NCBI GenBank assembly: GCA_013697045.1
Contig: JACCXJ010000021.1
Span: 1 to 41,637 of the forward strand
DNA length: 41,637 nucleotides
From: Gammaproteobacteria bacterium
Lineage (GTDB): Bacteria > Pseudomonadota > Gammaproteobacteria > JACCXJ01
Direction of reading: 5' to 3'
A program made the translations under genes and the position numbers. Under the pieces are notes generated by a model. It was not told the origin of the DNA. It worked only from the letters and a program-made list of their open reading frames with translations, and did no database searches. Within the stretch, counting starts at the first letter, position 1, and each line of letters starts with the position of its first letter. Shown in pieces: positions 26,362 through 40,319 of the stretch.

Positions 26362-29049
26362 TCAAAACTTCAGCTTGAAGGTCGCGAACAACGAGCCGTC
26401 GCGCTCGAGCTGGAAGCCGTTGAAGTCGTCCTCTACGGGTTGCAGCCACTCGACGCTCAGACGGTTGTCCTTGAGCCCCGCGATCGGTATCTCGGCGCTG
26501 AGCCCGAGGCCCACATCCCAGAAGCGCCTGCCATAGTTCTGCGGGAAGTCCACCGGGCTCACTTCCGAGTGCACGCCGTTGAACTCGCCCTCGATCTCAC
26601 CTTGGGTCGTGTAGACGCCGCGCACCGAGGCGGACAGCCAGTCGGTTAGGCCGAAGCTCCCCCAGGCGGTGGCCTGGAACTGATCGCCCAGCGCATAGCC
26701 GGATTCGTTTTCGTCTTCGAGACGATGGATCCCGCTCAATTGTCCGCCCCAGGACCAGCGCGCCGCCTGTCCCGTATAGGTGAGGCTCGGCAGGAAGTCC
26801 CAGGTGCCGCTGCCGAGCCGCATCGCATAGTGGATGAAGCCCTGGTCGATTCCATGGGTGGGCCTGAGCTTTTCGTCGACGGAGCCGGTCGGCGCGCTCA
26901 CGCCGAGACCCAGGTGCATGTGATGTCCGGGGACATCGAACAGCTTGAACAGGGCAAACATGGACGTGTCGCCGACGCCGCCGGTGGCCTCGGTGTGGAT
27001 CACGTGGTGGAACTCCGTGCTGTCGAGCGGGGGGGCACCCTCGAGCGCCTCCTGGTGCATGTCCATGTCGACGAACTGCGGCATGAGCATCAGGTTCAGC
27101 CAGTCGGTCGGCGCGTACATGATATCGAGCATGTGCATGTGCATGGTGTGCTCGACCGGCCTCACTTTGCAGGGGATGTCGCCACAGGCGTCACCGGCGA
27201 TGACGGCATCGCCCACGGCGTCCGAGCCACGCAGGATATCACCGTCCTGGCGGTGGAACATGTAGCGGTAGCCGACCATGAAGTCACCGGCTGCGGGCAG
27301 CATGTGGTCGAGCATGACGCCCGCCGGCGCGTCGCCGTGGCCGTGGCCGTGCGCGTCCTCATCATGGCCACGATGGCCGCCGTCGGCGGCGGACCACGCC
27401 GCGTCGAGGGCGACGTTCAGTGCGGCATTGACCTGGTAATAGCTGAAATCGGCGTAGTCGCCCTCACCGCCGCCGCCCAGCTTGAGCCCGCCCTCATGGG
27501 TGTAGTATTCGAAGCCCGCCTCGAGACGGACACCTGTCGCGAATTCCTTGCTCACGATCAGCCCGCCGCTCAAGGCGCCGAAGCCCGACAAGCGGTGGTC
27601 GCTCGAGAAGTCGTCGGGAAGCTTTTTCCGATCGAAGAGGACGGGCTGCCTGGAGATGACGAAGGGCCGGTAGAAATCGGCGGCGTCCTGCGAGTAATAG
27701 CGCACCCAGGGGGTCACGGTCCATCCTCGGCCCAGGGGTTGTCCAAAGCTCGACTCGAAGGTGTGAGCGTCGATGCCCCAATCATCGGAGAACAAGCGGT
27801 AGCCGAGATGCAACGACGCATCGAAAGGTTCTATATATTGTACATAGCGCGCATCCCAGGTCCATTGGTTACGCCTATCGGGCCGCTCTTCGAGCAAGGC
27901 CTTCACCGTCCCGACGAATCCGCCTGGAGGCGCCAAGAGTTGTTGCTCGGGATCGATGAACGCGACCTCGACCACCTTATAGGGGTTTTCGAGAAACCCG
28001 GTGCTCCGCGTATAACCGAGGTTGGTCTCGACGAACGCGTCCTTGGTCAGGACCTGCGTCAGACCGAAACGCGTAGCCCAATCCTGCCGTTCGCCCTCCA
28101 GAGTAACGGCTGTGGCCGCCGTGTTTGGTAACGACCTCCTGTCGATCTGGTCCGTAAATGCCGAGGTGTCGATGTAGGGAAGGGTGTCGTGATCGAGGAT
28201 GGCCTCGGTGTCGCTCCGGGTGTAGCTCAAGCCCAGGTTCAAGGTGGTGCGTTTCTGGTCGAGGTCCCAGCGCCCGGCCAGGCTGCCCCACCGCGATTCA
28301 TAGTCCCTTTCCGTAGAAAGGCCCCCGCCCACGTCCAGTGCCGCCTCGTCCCACTCGTAGCTGAACCTGAAATCGCCCTGTTTGCGGGTCTCGGGCGAGG
28401 CCGACGAGAGCGTATGGACCAACTGTGTGTCCTTACCGACCGATTGGCCGAGCTCGTCGACGGTGATCGGGTTGAATTGAGAATCGAAGAACAGATTACC
28501 TTCGATGAAAGGCGTCGCGCCCGAGACCCCATCGGGCGACGTCGGACAATTCCCCCCCGAACAGTTCGCACCAGTGGCGGCGAATGCCCGCGGCACGGTG
28601 GCGATCGGCGTGGCCCCGGACCAGGTGTCCTGCACGTAATTGGCGAAGAACTTCAACCGGTCGAAGAGCGTGAGGCTCGCGCTGCCCTGGAGGCTGTCCA
28701 CCAAGAGGGGATCGAATTTGCTCTCCACGCCGAAGAGATTGCGTTCGCCCTCCTGGTAACGGCCATACTGGAAGCCGAACTCGTCGCCCTCGGCAGCGGG
28801 AGTGGGCGATGGCACGAGCCCCGGCAAGGCCAGGGCGGCGGCCGTCAGTGCCCGTGAGGACACCCCCGCCGGCATTGCCGATGGCGGGCCGGCGTCGGCC
28901 GATTGCAACCCCCCGCTAAATGAGAAGAGGGGCAGGGGCCGGCCGAAACGGCACGGTGCGAGGCGCGTGAAAAACCGGCAGGCGGCGCGCACGCCTCTCC
29001 CGATGGCGCCGAGAGGCCGTGAGAGCCGGCAAAGGAACCTACGGCACAT
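26362..29049 (-). CDS. DUF3570 outer-membrane barrel with two predicted FMN-attachment motifs and His/Met-rich segments
   Basis: An 895-residue protein (837 if Met 28875 starts it). A signal-like stretch (ALTAAALALPGLVPSP) precedes the mature start AAEGDEFGFQYGRYQEGER typical of DUF3570. The remainder is alternating aromatic beta-strands ending in Phe (ATFKLKF), as in outer-membrane barrels. Two D-x-x-S-G-A-T motifs occur, DTWSGAT (141-147) and DGVSGAT (173-179), the consensus ApbE uses to attach FMN to Thr. Metal-binding-like segments are HRGHDEDAHGHGHGD (559-573) and HTMHMHM (634-640). Length suggests two barrel domains. Translation follows DUF4266 by 51 bp with AAGGGG before ATG 29049. The product is probably a flavinylated outer-membrane redox or metal protein (inference). 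Confidence 0.85.
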   Translation of the reverse strand: MCRRFLCRLSRPLGAIGRGVRAACRFFTRLAPCRFGRPLPLFSFSGGLQSADAGPPSAMPAGVSSRALTAAALALPGLVPSPTPAAEGDEFGFQYGRYQEGERNLFGVESKFDPLLVDSLQGSASLTLFDRLKFFANYVQDTWSGATPIATVPRAFAATGANCSGGNCPTSPDGVSGATPFIEGNLFFDSQFNPITVDELGQSVGKDTQLVHTLSSASPETRKQGDFRFSYEWDEAALDVGGGLSTERDYESRWGSLAGRWDLDQKRTTLNLGLSYTRSDTEAILDHDTLPYIDTSAFTDQIDRRSLPNTAATAVTLEGERQDWATRFGLTQVLTKDAFVETNLGYTRSTGFLENPYKVVEVAFIDPEQQLLAPPGGFVGTVKALLEERPDRRNQWTWDARYVQYIEPFDASLHLGYRLFSDDWGIDAHTFESSFGQPLGRGWTVTPWVRYYSQDAADFYRPFVISRQPVLFDRKKLPDDFSSDHRLSGFGALSGGLIVSKEFATGVRLEAGFEYYTHEGGLKLGGGGEGDYADFSYYQVNAALNVALDAAWSAADGGHRGHDEDAHGHGHGDAPAGVMLDHMLPAAGDFMVGYRYMFHRQDGDILRGSDAVGDAVIAGDACGDIPCKVRPVEHTMHMHMLDIMYAPTDWLNLMLMPQFVDMDMHQEALEGAPPLDSTEFHHVIHTEATGGVGDTSMFALFKLFDVPGHHMHLGLGVSAPTGSVDEKLRPTHGIDQGFIHYAMRLGSGTWDFLPSLTYTGQAARWSWGGQLSGIHRLEDENESGYALGDQFQATAWGSFGLTDWLSASVRGVYTTQGEIEGEFNGVHSEVSPVDFPQNYGRRFWDVGLGLSAEIPIAGLKDNRLSVEWLQPVEDDFNGFQLERDGSLFATFKLKF

Positions 29050-29100: not shown

Positions 29101-29325
29101 CTAGTAGCAGCCACAACCGCCACCCGCGGCGGTTCCGCCGGCCAGCGCCGCCTCGCGGCTCATATAGGTGTGCGCGCGCAAGGCACCTAGCGCCGGGTGG
29201 GGTTCCAAGGCCATGTGCGGCTTGGCGAGACGGCCGCGTTCCCACGGGGCCACCGGCGCGCAGCCCGAAAGCCAAACGCCCAACCCGAGCAGTAGCGCCG
29301 CCCATGCCCGTTTTGTTTTCTTCAT
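29101..29325 (-). CDS. DUF4266 small lipoprotein
   Basis: A 74-residue protein. A signal peptide with lipobox (LGVWLSGC, Cys at about residue 22) is followed by LAKPHMALEPHPALGALRAH, then TYMSREAALAGGTAAGGGCGCY. The Gly-rich CGCY terminus is the family hallmark and may bind metal. It should be anchored to the outer membrane, next to the DUF3570 barrel encoded 51 bp downstream. GAGGGA precedes ATG 29325. Operator-like site 5, with a minus-strand promoter, lies about 150 bp upstream. A frameshifted second copy is at 31572-31795. Confidence 0.85.
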   Translation of the reverse strand: MKKTKRAWAALLLGLGVWLSGCAPVAPWERGRLAKPHMALEPHPALGALRAHTYMSREAALAGGTAAGGGCGCY

Positions 29326-31031: not shown

Positions 31032-31547
31032 ATGAATCAGCGGATCATAGTCGCCTTCTTATGCGTACTGACGTTGGCTCTTCATCGGAACGCCGACGGC
31101 TTCGAGGCAGGTCACGCGGCACCCAACTGTTCATTGACGCCGGTCGGCAATGAACAACGCTATGACATGGATCAATTCCGCGGCAAGGTGCTGTACGTCG
31201 ATTTCTGGGCCTCCTGGTGCTCCCCCTGTGCGCAGTCCTTTGCCTTCCTGAACGATCTGGATACGGAGTTGCGCGGCCGGGGCCTGCAAGTTCTGGCGAT
31301 CAACTTGGATGAAAGACCTGAAGACGCGAAGGGCTTTCTTGCGAAACACCCGGCGACCTTCCCCGTGGCTTTTGATGCGGGGGGACGGTGTCCACAGGAC
31401 TTCGGCGTCCAAGGCATGCCGTCGTCCTACCTGGTCGACCGCAAGGGCATCGTTCGGCACGTGCACCTGGGCTTTCGGCGCGGGGAGGCGGAGAAACTCC
31501 GTGGGCTCGTAGAACACCTGCTGGCCGAGGTTCCCGAGGACGAATAG
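31032..31547 (+). CDS. TlpA-like thioredoxin-fold disulfide reductase, exported
   Basis: A 171-residue protein. A signal peptide (QRIIVAFLCVLTLALHRNADG) precedes a thioredoxin fold with VLYVDFWASWCSPC (active-site C63-S-P-C66), NDLDTELRGRGLQVLAINLDE, and the cis-Pro loop GMPSSYLVDRKG. TlpA/ResA proteins reduce specific disulfides in the periplasm, often for haem or copper protein assembly. Here a partner could be the Cys-rich DUF4266 lipoprotein encoded next (inference). The frame is open upstream to 30804, but that part overlaps another gene remnant. Met 31032 gives a normal signal peptide, though the ribosome site is weak. It is the only intact gene of its kind in the two operon copies. Confidence 0.87.
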   Translation: MNQRIIVAFLCVLTLALHRNADGFEAGHAAPNCSLTPVGNEQRYDMDQFRGKVLYVDFWASWCSPCAQSFAFLNDLDTELRGRGLQVLAINLDERPEDAKGFLAKHPATFPVAFDAGGRCPQDFGVQGMPSSYLVDRKGIVRHVHLGFRRGEAEKLRGLVEHLLAEVPEDE

Positions 31548-31571: not shown

Positions 31572-31795
31572 ATGAAGAAGGCCAACCGACTGTTGACGGC
31601 GCTGCTGCTCGGGCTGTGTGTCGGGCCGTCGGGCTGCGCGCCGGTGGCCCGTGGGAACACGGCAATCTCGCTCAACCGCACATGGCCTTGGAACCCAACC
31701 CCACGCTGCGCGCGCTCCGCGGGCATACCTATATGAGCCGCGAGGCGGCCGTGAGGGGCTCTGCTGCCGGAGGCGGTGGCTGCGGATGTTACTAG
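31572..31795 (+). pseudogene. DUF4266 lipoprotein, second copy, frameshifted
   Basis: It starts MKKANRLLTALLLGL with lipobox GPSGC, then leaves frame after CAPVA. The second frame continues PWEHGNLAQPHMALEPNP and ends RGSAAGGGGCGCY, matching the intact copy at 29101-29325 throughout. One C is missing from the run at 31648-31650. This is real decay or a homopolymer sequencing error. It lies 24 bp after tlpA and upstream of the deleted DUF3570 copy, preserving operon order. Confidence 0.85.
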
Positions 31796-31829: not shown

Positions 31830-32290
31830 GAGTACGCGACGGATCGCACGCGACTGAACGCCGTCCCTCATTGTCTCTCCGCCCTGGGCGCAGGGTTGCG
31901 CGCTGCTTTCCGGTATCTCACGGGGTGTCTTGTACGGCACCTCCGCAGGAGGCCGGTCTTGGCGCTCCAGTCCGCGCCTGGCGACGCAAGCCAGCGCTTC
32001 CTCGCGGGCGCTGACGGCCCCGCCGCCCTGGCCCTGCCCGGCCTAGCGCCGTCGCCTATTCATGCCGCCAAGGGTGACGATTTCAGCTTCCAGTATGGCC
32101 GCTACCAAGAAGGCGAGCGCGACCTCTTCGGCGACGACGCAAGGGGAGATCACGGGCGAGTTTAACGGCGTGCACTCGGACGTAGGCCCGGTGGATTTCC
32201 CGATGAACTACGGCGGGCGGTTCTGGGACGTGCGCTTCGGCCTCAGTGCCGAGGTGCCGATCGGTGCGCTGAAGATCTGTCGCCCGATGC
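31830..32290 (+). pseudogene. DUF3570 barrel, second copy, large internal deletion
   Basis: The beginning (AALALPGLAPSPIHAAKGDD, FQYGRYQEGERDLFG) matches the intact DUF3570 protein to about residue 106. At about 32135 it jumps to TQGEITGEFNGVHSDVGPVD and FWDVRFGLSAEVPIGALK, matching residues about 815-860. About 2.1 kb is missing, including both FMN-attachment motifs, and the last strands are absent. It cannot form a barrel. Unlike the single-base changes nearby, this deletion cannot be a base-calling artefact. Confidence 0.85.
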
Positions 32291-32307
32291 CGATCCATTG
32301 GATCGGA

Positions 32308-33334: not shown

Positions 33335-33613
33335 GTGATAAGGAGCTTTCGGCACAAGGGCGTGCAACGGTTCTTCGAGACGGGGACCAAGGCTGGGATC
33401 CAGGCGGCGCATGCCAGGCGCCTTGCCCGGCAGTTGCGGCACCTCAACGATGCCAGGAGACCCCAAGACATGAATATCCCCGGCTGGAACCTGCATCCTT
33501 TATCCGGCGCGCCTGCGGGCCGCTGGTCGGTCTGGGTAAGCGGGAATTGGCGGTTGGTTTTTGCCTTCGAGGGCGAAGATGCAACAGCCGTGGACTACGT
33601 GGATTATCACTAG
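33335..33613 (+). CDS. higB: HigB/RelE-family toxin
   Basis: A 92-residue ribosome-dependent mRNA interferase. It begins with GTG: IRSFRHKGVQRFFETGTKAG, then ARRLARQLRHLNDARRPQDM, the core IPGWNLHPLSGAPAGRWSVWVSGNWRLVF with basic/aromatic catalytic-site residues (R, W), and DAVDYVDYH-type end (ATAVDYVDYH). Length and order (toxin first, antitoxin second) match HigBA/GraTA. A palindromic operator precedes it. The antitoxin starts 9 bp after its stop. Confidence 0.92.
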   Translation: MIRSFRHKGVQRFFETGTKAGIQAAHARRLARQLRHLNDARRPQDMNIPGWNLHPLSGAPAGRWSVWVSGNWRLVFAFEGEDATAVDYVDYH

Positions 33614-33622
33614 GAGGGCATG

Positions 33623-34033
33623 ATGGGTCGCATGTACAACCCCCCCCATCCCGGGGAGACGATCGGGGAAGACATCCTTCCCGCCTTGGGCCTTAGCGTC
33701 ACCAAGGCGGCGGAGCAGCTTGGGGTGACGCGCGTTGCTTTGGCGCGGGTCATCCACGGCAAGGCGGCCATCTCGGCGACCATGGCTCGTAGGTTGGAGG
33801 CATGGCTCAATGGGCCGGAGGATGGCCCGAGCGCTGAGTCGTGGTTGCGGGGCCAACTAGCTTACGACCTACGGCAGGCGGAGCAAGCGCCGTGGCCGCG
33901 GGTACAACCTGCCCGCGCGGCCCGTGGGGGCGCGAGCGATACCCGCCCGCGTGCCGGCCTCCAAGGGACAACCGCCTCCTCGGGAAAGCCATCACGCCGG
34001 GAGCGCTCGGGGCGCGGCTCCAAGCTCAGCTAG
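33623..34033 (+). CDS. higA: HigA antitoxin (XRE-type HTH) with extended C-terminus
   Basis: A 136-residue protein. It starts GRMYNPPHPGETIGEDI, followed by the HTH LSVTKAAEQLGVTRVALARVIHGKAAIS and the WLNGPEDGPSAESWLRGQLAYDL end typical of HigA. Family members usually stop near QPARAA; this one continues about 40 residues of Arg/Ser/Gly-rich sequence, probably read-through after loss of the original stop. GGAGG lies 5-6 nt before the second ATG (33623), preferred over ATG 33620. It should neutralise HigB and repress the operon. Confidence 0.88.
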   Translation: MGRMYNPPHPGETIGEDILPALGLSVTKAAEQLGVTRVALARVIHGKAAISATMARRLEAWLNGPEDGPSAESWLRGQLAYDLRQAEQAPWPRVQPARAARGGASDTRPRAGLQGTTASSGKPSRRERSGRGSKLS

Positions 34034-34283: not shown

Positions 34284-35279
34284 ATGGTTTTAAACGTGAC
34301 TGGCGTGAGGTCGTACCGCTCTGCATTCAAGGCGATGGGCTCTCCCTGTGAGATCCAGCTCTTTGTCACCAGCCATGCGGAGGGCGAGCGGATCGCGGGA
34401 ATCGCGATCGCCGAGGTCGGTCGCCTGGAAGCGCGTTATTCGCGCTTTCGCAGCGATAGCTTTCTATCGGAGATCAATCGCGTAGCCGCCCGTAGGGGAC
34501 GCATTTCCGTAGACGAAGAGACTGCGGGGCTGCTCAATTACGCCGCGACCTGCTATCGCGAGAGCGATGGGCTCTTCGACATTACCTCCGGTATATTGCG
34601 TCGCGCATGGCGCTTTGATCGAGGCACGCTGCCCGATGAGGCACAGATCCAGGGTTTGCTCGATAAGGTCGGATGGCACCGGGTCCGCTGGGCGCCCCCG
34701 GTCCTCGAATTCCCATTGCCGGGTATGGAGATTGATTTCGGCGGCGTCGTCAAAGAATATGCCGTCGACCGGGCGGCAACGCTTTGCTGGGAGGCCGGGG
34801 CGCGATCCGGCCACATCAATTTGGGCGGCGACATCAAGGTCATCGGGCCTCGTCCGGACGGCAGCCCGTGGCGGATCGGCATACGCCATCCTCGTCGCCC
34901 GGGGGCCCTTATACAAACGGTCTCGCTATTCCGCGGCGCACTTGCCAGCAGCGGCGACTACGAGCGTTGCATCATGCTGGACGGTGTGCGTTACGGTCAT
35001 ATCCTCAACCCGAGAACCGGTTGGCCGGTGCGCTACTTGGCATCGGTCAGCGTAGTCGGAGATCTGTGTCTCATCGCGGGTAGCGCCTCGACGATTGCCA
35101 TGCTCAAGGAGGCTGCTGGCCCGGCATGGCTGGTGGGCATGGGTATGCCCCATTTCTGGGTGGATGTGAACGGCGAGGCCGGAGGTTCGCTAGCGGCATC
35201 GGCCAGCGCCGAAGGCTGCGTCTCGGCGCAGGGCGGCGCACGTGATGCACCGGCCTTTGCGGTGCTCGATGAATCCTGA
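34284..35279 (+). CDS. apbE: FAD:protein FMN transferase (ApbE)
   Basis: A 331-residue enzyme that transfers FMN from FAD to Thr/Ser of target proteins in a D-x-x-S/T-G-A-T motif. The signatures visible are FKAMGSPCEI, FLSEINRV, LFDITSGILRRAWRF, the core EIDFGGVVKEYAVDRA (usually DLGGIAKGYAVD), HINLGGDIKVIGPRPDG, LASSGDYE, YGHILNPRTGWPV, and the C-terminal AGSASTIAML (usually ADALSTA). The frame shows no signal peptide or lipobox, unlike many periplasmic ApbE proteins; the remnant copy at 26345 begins the same way. The likely substrate is the DUF3570 barrel encoded at 26362-29049. No clear ribosome site precedes the ATG. A decayed spermidine-synthase-like gene follows by 27 bp. Confidence 0.9.
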   Translation: MVLNVTGVRSYRSAFKAMGSPCEIQLFVTSHAEGERIAGIAIAEVGRLEARYSRFRSDSFLSEINRVAARRGRISVDEETAGLLNYAATCYRESDGLFDITSGILRRAWRFDRGTLPDEAQIQGLLDKVGWHRVRWAPPVLEFPLPGMEIDFGGVVKEYAVDRAATLCWEAGARSGHINLGGDIKVIGPRPDGSPWRIGIRHPRRPGALIQTVSLFRGALASSGDYERCIMLDGVRYGHILNPRTGWPVRYLASVSVVGDLCLIAGSASTIAMLKEAAGPAWLVGMGMPHFWVDVNGEAGGSLAASASAEGCVSAQGGARDAPAFAVLDES

Positions 35280-36907: not shown

Positions 36908-38317
36908 CTAGCTCGCGATGCGCCCGCGTGCCGCCCGTTCTCTTCGAATCGCTTTCCGGATCGCCGTCTTCGAACAGGGCTCGCAGCCGGTCACGGGCGA
37001 CCTGGCCTTGTTAAGGAGCGTAACGGCATCGGGATGCAGGCTGGCGCCCGCGAGGACTTCGATCGCATCTTCGATCTCGCGCGCCGAGCGTGCCACGAAC
37101 CGTGCCCTGCGCGCCGCGTTTCGGCTCTTCAGGGCGGAACGCTGCAAGCGGATGGCGCTGTCGATATTCTCCAATGCGTTGATGACCCTGAGGAACGCGG
37201 CCACCGCCTCGACCTGGGTGGTATCGAGATGGATACCGCCCCCGATCTGCCGAGCCCCACGGGAGTTGTTGAACGCATCGCTGTTATAGAACGCGACCGC
37301 GCCTTCGAGGGTGGCGATGACGTTGTTGTGGAAGAACGGGGGCGTGTCGGCGGCCTCCACCAGCGGAGGGATATTGAAGCTCCCGTCCCCGAAACCGAGT
37401 TGCGGTATCGGGTTGGGGCTTGCTCCGAACCCGCCGTCTGGGGGCACGGGCTCGCCCGTCAGGGCCGCCGGCGGGTCCAAGAGGGCCTCGACCCCGATGT
37501 CTACGCGGATGTTGCCCAGGTTGCCGGCACCGAGGGTGGCGTTCGCCCCGGCGTTCACGTGGCACAGGTTGCACTTCCCGAGGGTATCGTCGAGGAAGAT
37601 GTCCTGGCCGCGGCGGGGGACCGTCCCCTTGAGCGCCAGCGGCAGGACCGGATCAGACTGCCGGCCCAAGGACTGCTGGAAGGCCAGCAAGGCGTCCAGC
37701 TCCGCCTCCGTCGGCAGCCGGAAGTCCACGCCGGGCACGCGTTGCAATGTCTTGGTGAAGTGCTGTATCACCGCACCGGTGGCAAAGGACCGGAGGCTGC
37801 GATCGCCGGGTGCGCCGTCACCCGACCACCCGGTCTGCGGCCCGGAAAAACTCGCGACCGAGGTGGACAACGACAGGACGTGCGGGACGCCCCGCAGGAC
37901 GCCTGGATTCTGGAATCCATCCACGTGCTCGCGGATCAACCCGAACGCGCGCAGAAGACGAGGGTTTTCGAGATCGGCCAGGGCCGGATTGCGTTCGGCG
38001 ACGAACAGGGGGTCGTTGCGTTTGAGCGTGGCGATGAACGCCGGGTCCAGGGTGAAATTGTTCTCCACGGGGTGGCAGGTCCCGCAGGTCCTCCCGTTGC
38101 CGTTGAAGGTCTCGTTGAAGAACAGGTCTTCTCCGCGGGCGATGAGACGGGCCCGGGCGAGCCGGTCGTCCGCTGCGTGCGCGGCCTGGGCCTGTCCATT
38201 TCCCGCGGGAAGCCGGACCCGCTCCTGCGCCAGCGCGACGGCAGCGGATAGGCAGGACGCCAGCAAGGCGAGCCGCGCGAGCCCTGCAAGATCCCTTTTC
38301 AATGATAGCGGAGCCAT
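36908..38317 (-). CDS. Di-haem cytochrome c peroxidase-like exported protein
   Basis: A 469-residue protein. A signal peptide (LARLALLASCLSAAVALAQ) precedes two CxxCH haem-binding sites: RTCGTCHPVENNF early and GKCNLCHVNAGAN in the second half. Between them come RGVPHVLSLSTSV and GWSGDGAPGDRSL, and later NIPPLVEAADTPPFFHNN, which match bacterial di-haem peroxidase/MauG-like proteins that act in the periplasm. A basic C-terminal extension (about residues 400-469) with CEPC is unusual. ATG 38317 is chosen (GGGAT about 11 nt upstream); an earlier TTG is less likely. Transcribed opposite to the preceding genes and next to sodC, consistent with oxidative-stress functions. Confidence 0.88.
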   Translation of the reverse strand: MAPLSLKRDLAGLARLALLASCLSAAVALAQERVRLPAGNGQAQAAHAADDRLARARLIARGEDLFFNETFNGNGRTCGTCHPVENNFTLDPAFIATLKRNDPLFVAERNPALADLENPRLLRAFGLIREHVDGFQNPGVLRGVPHVLSLSTSVASFSGPQTGWSGDGAPGDRSLRSFATGAVIQHFTKTLQRVPGVDFRLPTEAELDALLAFQQSLGRQSDPVLPLALKGTVPRRGQDIFLDDTLGKCNLCHVNAGANATLGAGNLGNIRVDIGVEALLDPPAALTGEPVPPDGGFGASPNPIPQLGFGDGSFNIPPLVEAADTPPFFHNNVIATLEGAVAFYNSDAFNNSRGARQIGGGIHLDTTQVEAVAAFLRVINALENIDSAIRLQRSALKSRNAARRARFVARSAREIEDAIEVLAGASLHPDAVTLLNKARSPVTGCEPCSKTAIRKAIRRERAARGRIAS

Positions 38318-38545
38318 GGGATCCAATCCCTAGGAAGGTGATCCGGTGCCCAATGCCGGGCGATGATGGCGAGGGTCACACGATAGCAGATATCCCCGCA
38401 GACCAACAAGACGAGAGATCCCAGGCATCGGTAGCGTGATAGTTTACGGCACGCTCTTGACCTGTTCACATCCCTGGGCCTTATCTCTGCCCGTGCCGCC
38501 GTTGCATAGATCCCTGCCAGAACCTCCGACAAGCCGGTCCCTACC

Positions 38546-39293: not shown

Positions 39294-39857
39294 TCACCGG
39301 TCGGGTTCGACGATCCCACACGCGACCCGCGCTCCCCCCGCGCATCCGGGTACCGGCCCGGCCGGGCAGAAGGTGTCGGGATCGGCATGAATGATAAAAA
39401 CGCTGCCGTCCGAGTCGAACAGCGAAAGCGGGCCGGGGGAAAGGGTGAAGCGGGTCGTCTTCGTCCGTAGCCGCCCGCGGCCTGACGGGGTCACTACGAC
39501 GTTGATGAGATCACCCAAGTGAAAAGGATGATTACCGTCCGGAGATGAGTTCCCGTTCGGTCCCGGATCAAAGTGCCCGCCCGCCGCGGCGCAGGGTTGG
39601 CAGCTCGCAACCTCGTGGATATGCACCGCATGCCGTCCTTCGGGCAAGCCCTGGACGAAAAGCCTGACGTCGATCACCTTGATCCCGTTCGCGGAGCGGC
39701 GTTCGATGAGCCGGGCGGTGCCCGAGATGGCCGGATCCGTACAGCCGATGATCTCCGCCGTTGCTCGGGCGCTCACCTGGTTTTGGGCGGCGCTTGCGCT
39801 CACGCTGATAAGACCAGCCACGACGATCAGACCCGCGCATATGCTTTGCACTTTCAT
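39294..39857 (-). CDS. sodC: Cu/Zn superoxide dismutase, exported
   Basis: A 187-residue periplasmic enzyme that disproportionates superoxide. A signal peptide (SICAGLIVVAGLISVSASA) is followed by copper ligands in HAVHIHE (H79, H81), the bridging His in GGHFDP (H95), zinc-site HPFHLGD (H113, D116), a C-terminal copper His in FIIHADPD, and GARVACGIVE with the disulfide Cys and active-site Arg. The zinc-loop His is displaced relative to E. coli SodC, as in a subset of the family. AGGAG 7 nt before ATG 39857 fixes the start over earlier in-frame Met. It is next to a di-haem peroxidase and is another copper protein in this region. Confidence 0.9.
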   Translation of the reverse strand: MKVQSICAGLIVVAGLISVSASAAQNQVSARATAEIIGCTDPAISGTARLIERRSANGIKVIDVRLFVQGLPEGRHAVHIHEVASCQPCAAAGGHFDPGPNGNSSPDGNHPFHLGDLINVVVTPSGRGRLRTKTTRFTLSPGPLSLFDSDGSVFIIHADPDTFCPAGPVPGCAGGARVACGIVEPDR

Positions 39858-40319
39858 TTTCGCTCTCCTATTCATCAGAATCGGACCAACAGGTTCGGCC
39901 GTGTCTGACCTCTCTCGCCCCCGGCGGGCGAGCCGGCCAGGATCGGCACCAGTACGATGAGCCACGACAACGACACGGCACGTAGCGAATGACGCATGTC
40001 CTTCACTCTTTTCGGTCAGCCCGGGCCGGCGCTCGGGTGTTACGGAGCCGGCCGCCGAATGCTACTCAGTCAAGCTACGCGAGTCAGTGAAATAATACCA
40101 GAAGCCTCGCAGTCTGCCGAGGGACTGGGCGGGCATGGGTCCCCGCGCGCCGTTGTCATCTACGCCGCGTGGGGCGCCCGTTGGCCTGCTTCTCGAGTAG
40201 GACCTCCTTGAGACCCGGGTGCGGAAGGGTGCTCCCGTCGATCGTGTCCTCGCGACGGAAGCTGACCCGGGCTTTTGCGTCGCTGACGACGACCTTGATT
40301 TCCTTGAGGCGTTCGCCGG
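39858..40319. other. Intergenic region with a possible gene fragment
   Basis: No intact gene. On the minus strand near 40160-40320 a short frame reads KEIKVVVSDAKARVSFRRED and ends KQANGRPTRRR. It looks protein-like but has no start or family I recognise. The sodC promoter should lie close to 39880-40000; none is clear. Confidence 0.3.

Follow-up and report, generated by a model that had tools for sequence, protein, structure and literature searches.

A predicted DUF3570 barrel with two putative flavinylation sites is fused to a predicted Met/His-rich barrel and accompanied by a signal-peptide-less ApbE

The target motif of the flavin transferase ApbE is D-x-x-[S/T]-G-A-[S/T] (PMC12052999). 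The closest described relatives of the locus reported here are the DUF3570 gene clusters of the DsbD-linked system. According to the accessible sections of Meheust et al. 2021 (PMC8238504), ApbE-linked DUF3570 proteins bear two conserved [S/T]GA[S/T] motifs, and their clusters hold a thioredoxin, a DUF4266 protein with a C-terminal CxC and sometimes DsbD, which is absent from 316 of them. The same sections describe a DUF3570 protein of Chlorobium luteolum that is flavinylated by its own ApbE, a modification abolished only when both sites were changed. Two other systems resemble parts of the locus: the cytosolic ApbE of Klebsiella pneumoniae, which has no signal peptide, works inside the cell and modifies a soluble fumarate reductase (PMC12052999), and the PF13557 (Phenol_MetA_deg-type) barrels that lie near Cus-type operons.

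The window, which is the whole 41,637-nucleotide stretch of gammaproteobacterial DNA analysed here, contains the same four genes as the DUF3570 clusters, with two motifs in the DUF3570 protein and an ApbE gene among its partners. All three partners are present, split over two half-operons. Compared to the clusters in the accessible part of Meheust et al. (PMC8238504), the DUF3570 protein is about twice as long owing to its fusion to a Met/His-rich barrel. Its ApbE lacks a signal peptide, as does the Klebsiella enzyme, but is predicted to act on an outer-membrane barrel that is exported. Homologues of the C-terminal half exist as stand-alone proteins rich in Met and His, whereas here it sits fused behind the flavin barrel. 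At its core, the locus is a new member of the known DUF3570 flavinylation system. The initial annotation foresaw neither the two-part fusion nor the signal-less ApbE. Both the DUF3570-Met/His barrel fusion and the DUF3570-tied signal-less ApbE clade appear to be unreported.

The fusion gene and its partners in two half-operons

The fusion protein consists of a DUF3570 domain, a His-rich linker and a C-terminal Met/His-rich domain (Table 1). The DUF3570 domain matches PF12094 over profile positions 2-426 of 427, with a score of 397 bits against a cut-off of 25. Translation probably starts at Met59 (28875), where a signal-peptide-like stretch begins; this placement is a judgement. Full-length relatives of the fusion range from about 850 to 1400 residues.

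Table 1. Features of the DUF3570 locus, in window coordinates
Feature	Position	Strand	Basis
DUF3570 + C-terminal barrel fusion gene, probable coding part (residues 59-895)	26362..28875	-	longest ORF 26362-29049, 895 aa
Predicted C-terminal Met/His-rich barrel domain, 320 residues (576-895)	26365..27324	-	Met conservation, contexts of homologues
Met/His ladder MHMHM...M...MLM...MDM, residues 636-664	27058..27144	-	conservation among relatives
His-rich linker joining both halves, residues 552-575	27325..27396	-	3-8 His per linker, 30 relatives shown
DUF3570 domain, predicted flavin barrel, residues 66-538	27436..28854	-	Pfam PF12094, 1.2e-118
Putative flavinylation site 2, DGVSGAT, residues 173-179, predicted acceptor Thr179	28513..28533	-	conservation
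Putative flavinylation site 1, DTWSGAT, residues 141-147, predicted acceptor Thr147	28609..28629	-	conservation
DUF4266 lipoprotein, intact copy	29101..29325	-	PF14086 7e-19; lipobox LSGC, C-terminal CxC (CGCY end)
TlpA/ResA-type thioredoxin (WCSPC), sole copy in locus	31032..31547	+	Redoxin 6e-25; ResA-like
Second DUF4266 copy, with a frameshift separating lipobox from mature part	31572..31795	+	PF14086 4e-16
Second DUF3570 fusion remnant	31866..32304	+	tblastn pieces, blastn junction about 32133/32134
ApbE, signal-peptide-less clade, predicted cognate flavin transferase	34284..35279	+	PF02424 6.8e-71, 239 bits; Cys22, Gly266

The plus strand carries, in order, the thioredoxin gene, the frameshifted DUF4266 copy, the DUF3570 remnant, roughly 2 kb in which a HigA-type antitoxin gene lies, and the ApbE gene; the minus strand carries the intact DUF4266 and fusion genes. 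In the second DUF4266 copy, the signal lies in frame 31542 and the mature domain in frame 31541. The second DUF3570 copy lacks both motifs, as the initial annotation had said; they went with a deletion of 2,117 bp, which leaves a frameshift. Across the remnant, blastn gives a DNA identity of about 82% between the two DUF3570 copies. Decay after duplication has been complementary, in that the plus strand keeps the thioredoxin and ApbE and the minus strand keeps DUF4266 and the fusion. Between them, the two duplicated half-operons keep each of the four genes intact exactly once, which fits four genes that work as a set, and this arrangement appears to be unreported. The TlpA partner, the Cys-rich lipoprotein (the DUF4266 protein) and the intact ApbE, all named in the initial annotation, were confirmed by Pfam matches, together with the lipobox and the CGCY end of the lipoprotein.

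Loci throughout the class repeat the order thioredoxin, DUF4266, DUF3570, ApbE, and DUF4266 adjoins DUF3570 in 114 of the 121 DUF3570 genes of all loci. Some neighbours within the window lie outside this set. The HigA-family antitoxin gene and a small ORF preceding it (33335-34033, plus strand), located between the DUF3570 remnant and ApbE, look like an inserted toxin-antitoxin pair. Near ApbE are also genes for a MauG/MbnH-like di-haem protein (36908-38326, minus strand; weak NCBIfam match) and a Cu-Zn superoxide dismutase-like protein (39294-39965, minus strand).

Flavinylation motifs and the signal-less ApbE clade

Both motifs are present at the residues given in the initial annotation, and both fit D-x-x-[S/T]-G-A-[S/T]. 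In 53 aligned relatives of the fusion, the acceptors of both motifs are conserved, the property which the initial annotation had put forward as the test in homologues. At site 1, which is gapped in one row, the Asp, Gly and Ala and the Pro that follows the acceptor are each found in 52/52, with the acceptor being Thr in 47 and Ser in five. At site 2 the acceptor is Ser in 44 and Thr in nine (53/53), and the preceding Ala is kept in 52/53 and the Gly in 33/53. In a class-wide collection of 64 DUF3570 proteins with their surroundings, the window's own included, site 1 reads D-x-x-[ST]-G-[AS]-[ST] in most canonical, motif-bearing members, and D-x-[IV]-[ST]-S-A-S in most members of a divergent group (L113-L127). 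Fusion paralogues from multi-copy genomes (L212, L231 and L232) have no [ST]GA[ST] motif and are possibly non-flavinylated versions.

Covalent flavinylation of the window protein is very likely. The proposal of ApbE-dependent flavinylation at two sites is supported, but it is not new, since such flavinylation has already been published for the Chlorobium homologue, as the accessible text of PMC8238504 records. It is very improbable that the SGAT motifs are flavin-free, as products of chance or as vestiges. The motif is indeed short, the site 2 Gly has gone from many long forms, and some paralogues in multi-copy genomes have neither strict motif; however, of 20,000 shuffles of the window protein 1.1% gave one or more D..[ST]GA[ST] and only 0.005% gave two or more, the acceptors are kept in the aligned relatives, and a homologue is flavinylated at both sites (PMC8238504, accessible part).

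The ApbE of the locus keeps the catalytic signature of the family (PF02424) along with its fold: D151/G153/K157, G182-D183, S223-G224 and H239 are invariant. Neither a signal peptide nor a lipobox was found in it. The main group of DUF3570-linked ApbEs begins directly at the fold, typically with F-x-A-M-[GA]-[ST]-P-C-E, and a search for signal peptides in 57 DUF3570-type ApbEs showed that even the longest possible reading frame leaves at most 30 residues ahead of the fold, none of these stretches hydrophobic. By contrast, a signal peptide, membrane anchor or lipobox is present in 21/21 control ApbEs, which comprise 20 from genomes where the signal-less kind is found as well and the second ApbE of the window genome (L002). 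Linked ApbEs with a signal peptide number three (L114, L121 and L123), all in the divergent SSAS group; they also have the usual Asp at the metal site.

The signal-less ApbEs form one clade with 100/100 support. Its distinctive residues are Cys22 (32/32), Cys262 (31/32) and Gly266 (32/32), whereas position 266 is Asp in 24/24 other ApbEs. Gly266 aligns with Asp284 of the Treponema pallidum ApbE, a Mg ligand in that enzyme (PMC5655446), and alignment with TM1553 shows the same Asp/Gly exchange. Because this Mg-binding Asp is absent, the activity of the dedicated ApbE is not guaranteed. The accessible text of Meheust et al. (PMC8238504) holds no mention of the clade.

Searched with a profile of the clade, 51 of the 369 class genomes scored 227-459 bits, and the others reached no more than 206. 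The signal-less ApbE occurs in 48/49 genomes with a strong motif-type DUF3570, 2/45 with the divergent type and 1/275 without DUF3570, that is, in 3/320 outside the motif-type genomes; the groups were split at scores picked after the gap had been seen, and the co-occurrence statistics ignore shared ancestry. The initial annotation had asked whether the motif is conserved only where ApbE is linked. At the level of the genome the association stood, but the two genes are not always in the same operon, and linkage proved too crude a test because, where a motif-bearing DUF3570 has no ApbE next to it, the dedicated ApbE is usually found elsewhere in the genome. In three genomes (G034, G192 and G056; L265-L267), the fetched locus with an ApbE of the clade has no DUF3570, and these enzymes may have another substrate.

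We propose that the dedicated signal-less ApbE would load the barrel precursor with FMN at Thr147 and Thr179. The simplest place for this would be the cytosol, ahead of Sec export, so that an FMN-bearing chain would make a hypothetical passage through SecYEG. We know of no DUF3570/ApbE pair that has been tested with native signal peptides. An alternative site is the periplasm, where the second, lipoprotein-type ApbE of the genome (G000:C411) could modify the unfolded barrel en route to BAM, with the signal-less enzyme otherwise engaged in the cytosol. A lipobox (LTAC), the usual MGT and the Asp metal site are all present in that second ApbE, known ApbEs with exported substrates are periplasmic (PMC12052999), and the Asp that serves as Mg ligand is gone from the signal-less clade. 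Yet it is the signal-less ApbE, and not the lipoprotein, that the operon holds, and it is this clade that tracks the motif-bearing DUF3570 across genomes. We therefore consider periplasmic flavinylation unlikely and favour cytosolic loading.

Predicted barrel topology and the Met/His-rich domain

The window protein is predicted to be an outer-membrane barrel. Its terminal residue is Phe, as in 53/53 fusion relatives, and a PDB search with the family profile returned the FapF barrel as a weak match only. We infer the barrel count, the strand register and the membrane side of the loops from the sequences. Insertions within the fusion family cluster right behind the sites, after residue 182 (up to 333 residues) and residue 193 (up to 211 residues), whereas the turn that precedes site 1 (FDR) shows no length change among fusion relatives. 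Long, insertion-tolerant loops are typical of the extracellular side. With the N-terminus in the periplasm, the motif loop would be the second external loop, and a position outside the cell or folded into the lumen is more probable for it than a periplasmic one. After BAM assembly, the outer end of the third strand and the long second loop would bear the two FMN-carrying residues, which would lie on the surface side or inside the lumen.

The initial annotation implied a different picture, a relay directed at the periplasm with the motif loop on that side of the membrane. In its favour, both partners, the thioredoxin and DUF4266, belong to the periplasm, and the loop side is deduced from topology reasoning; even so, insertions of up to 333 residues and the external position of the second hairpin loop, given a periplasmic N-terminus, make this orientation quite improbable, and we retain the surface-side or lumenal placement.

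Long forms of 1,080-1,400 residues in Methylococcales (L193-L211) have a further insertion, a few hundred residues in length and with a secreted-type globular part, directly after site 1, and their matches to the window protein start after the motif region. The idea that these forms carry multiple flavins was rejected, as each has one site 1 motif, with one exception; nor does the insertion have a haem motif (CxxCH).

The C-terminal half differs sharply from the DUF3570 half in its Met content, with a mean fraction of 6.1% compared to 1.2%. Across the 53 relatives, 12 Met positions are at least 85% conserved in the C-terminal half, most of them at 98-100%, and none in the DUF3570 half. Within the ladder, M636, M638, M640, M644, M656, M662 and M664 reach 100%, M654 98% and H639 96%; the domain also has a conserved Cys pair at residues 622 and 627. 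Pfam PF13557 gave no match to the window protein at E 0.1, and NCBIfam has no name for the fusion or for its C-terminal half; the homologous piece L154 does match PF13557, at 32.6 bits against a cut-off of 22. Stand-alone relatives bear a PCu(A)C domain (L157), adjoin CusA/CusB/OEP (CusCBA-like) genes (L155 and L158) or lie near a thioredoxin-like gene (L161).

Distribution of the fusion and a possible role in copper reduction

The PF02461 protein of the window genome is closest to PmoA (405 bits, versus 254 for AmoA); the genome thus encodes pMMO and is a probable methanotroph. A broad contig scan returned three relatives of the window protein, and whole-genome searches were then used for its distribution. 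In the 369-genome class sample, DUF3570 proteins of about 900 residues occur only in the window genome, G248 and G322, all three of which have PF02461, present in 10/369 genomes (Fisher 1.4e-5). The window protein was matched in 138 of the 201 genomes of G248's order, which is taken as Methylococcales, many of these matches being full-length and in several copies. It was likewise matched in 70 of the 120 genomes of G322's family, nearly all in one genus. That family has three amoA-type copies, and its other genera are without the fusion; the three-amoA genus of G322 would be Nitrosomonas. G398 has a C-terminal fragment only, and G384 has two fusions and no PF02461 match. The two fusion genes of G384 (L151) are divergently oriented about 2.4 kb apart, in an arrangement like that of the window. 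A link of DUF3570 to copper monooxygenases was not found in the accessible part of Meheust et al. (PMC8238504).

We propose that the product of the locus is a redox protein of the outer membrane that is flavinylated in the cytosol, holds its flavins on the surface side or in the lumen, is fed by thiols and reduces Cu(II) for pMMO or AMO, a reading to which we assign a probability of roughly 45%. Two proteins would supply reducing equivalents as the putative electron donors of this relay: the TlpA-type thioredoxin of the periplasm and DUF4266, the lipoprotein with the CxC. In the window methanotroph and its relatives, where the flavin barrel is joined through the His-rich linker to the barrel with the Met/His ladder, the most likely task of the flavins would be the reduction of Cu(II) to Cu(I), which could then be bound by, or pass through, the second barrel, and copper would thereby be supplied to pMMO or AMO. 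We infer the copper role from the conserved Met and His residues, the Cus-like and PCu(A)C contexts of the stand-alone relatives, the pMMO of the window genome and the distribution of the fusion; its direction is tentative. Doubtful as yet is the joint proposition that cytosolic FMN loading by the signal-less clade puts the flavins on or near the surface and that, in methane and ammonia oxidisers, the fused barrel serves as both cupric reductase and copper entry for these enzymes.

The system might instead handle iron or general extracellular acceptors, or export or detoxify copper, with the fused barrel as a passive porin or an efflux-side partner. In the accessible part of Meheust et al. (PMC8238504), 25 DUF3570 clusters hold a VIT1-type iron transporter, which points to iron rather than copper; moreover, the stand-alone C-terminal barrels adjoin Cus-type efflux genes, and G384 has its fusions without pMMO or AMO. 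However, the Met ladder hardly varies and is confined to the C-terminal half, and the fusion occurs mainly in lineages with copper monooxygenases, which makes the iron or export alternative somewhat unlikely and leaves copper reduction as the preferred role.

Flavinylation of DUF3570 proteins is known, and the fusion offers a concrete function for the system that can be tested. The signal-less clade raises the question of whether a covalent flavin can be installed before Sec export. If the proposed function is true, a surface cupric reductase combined with a copper port would bear on outer-membrane copper uptake by methanotrophs and ammonia oxidisers.
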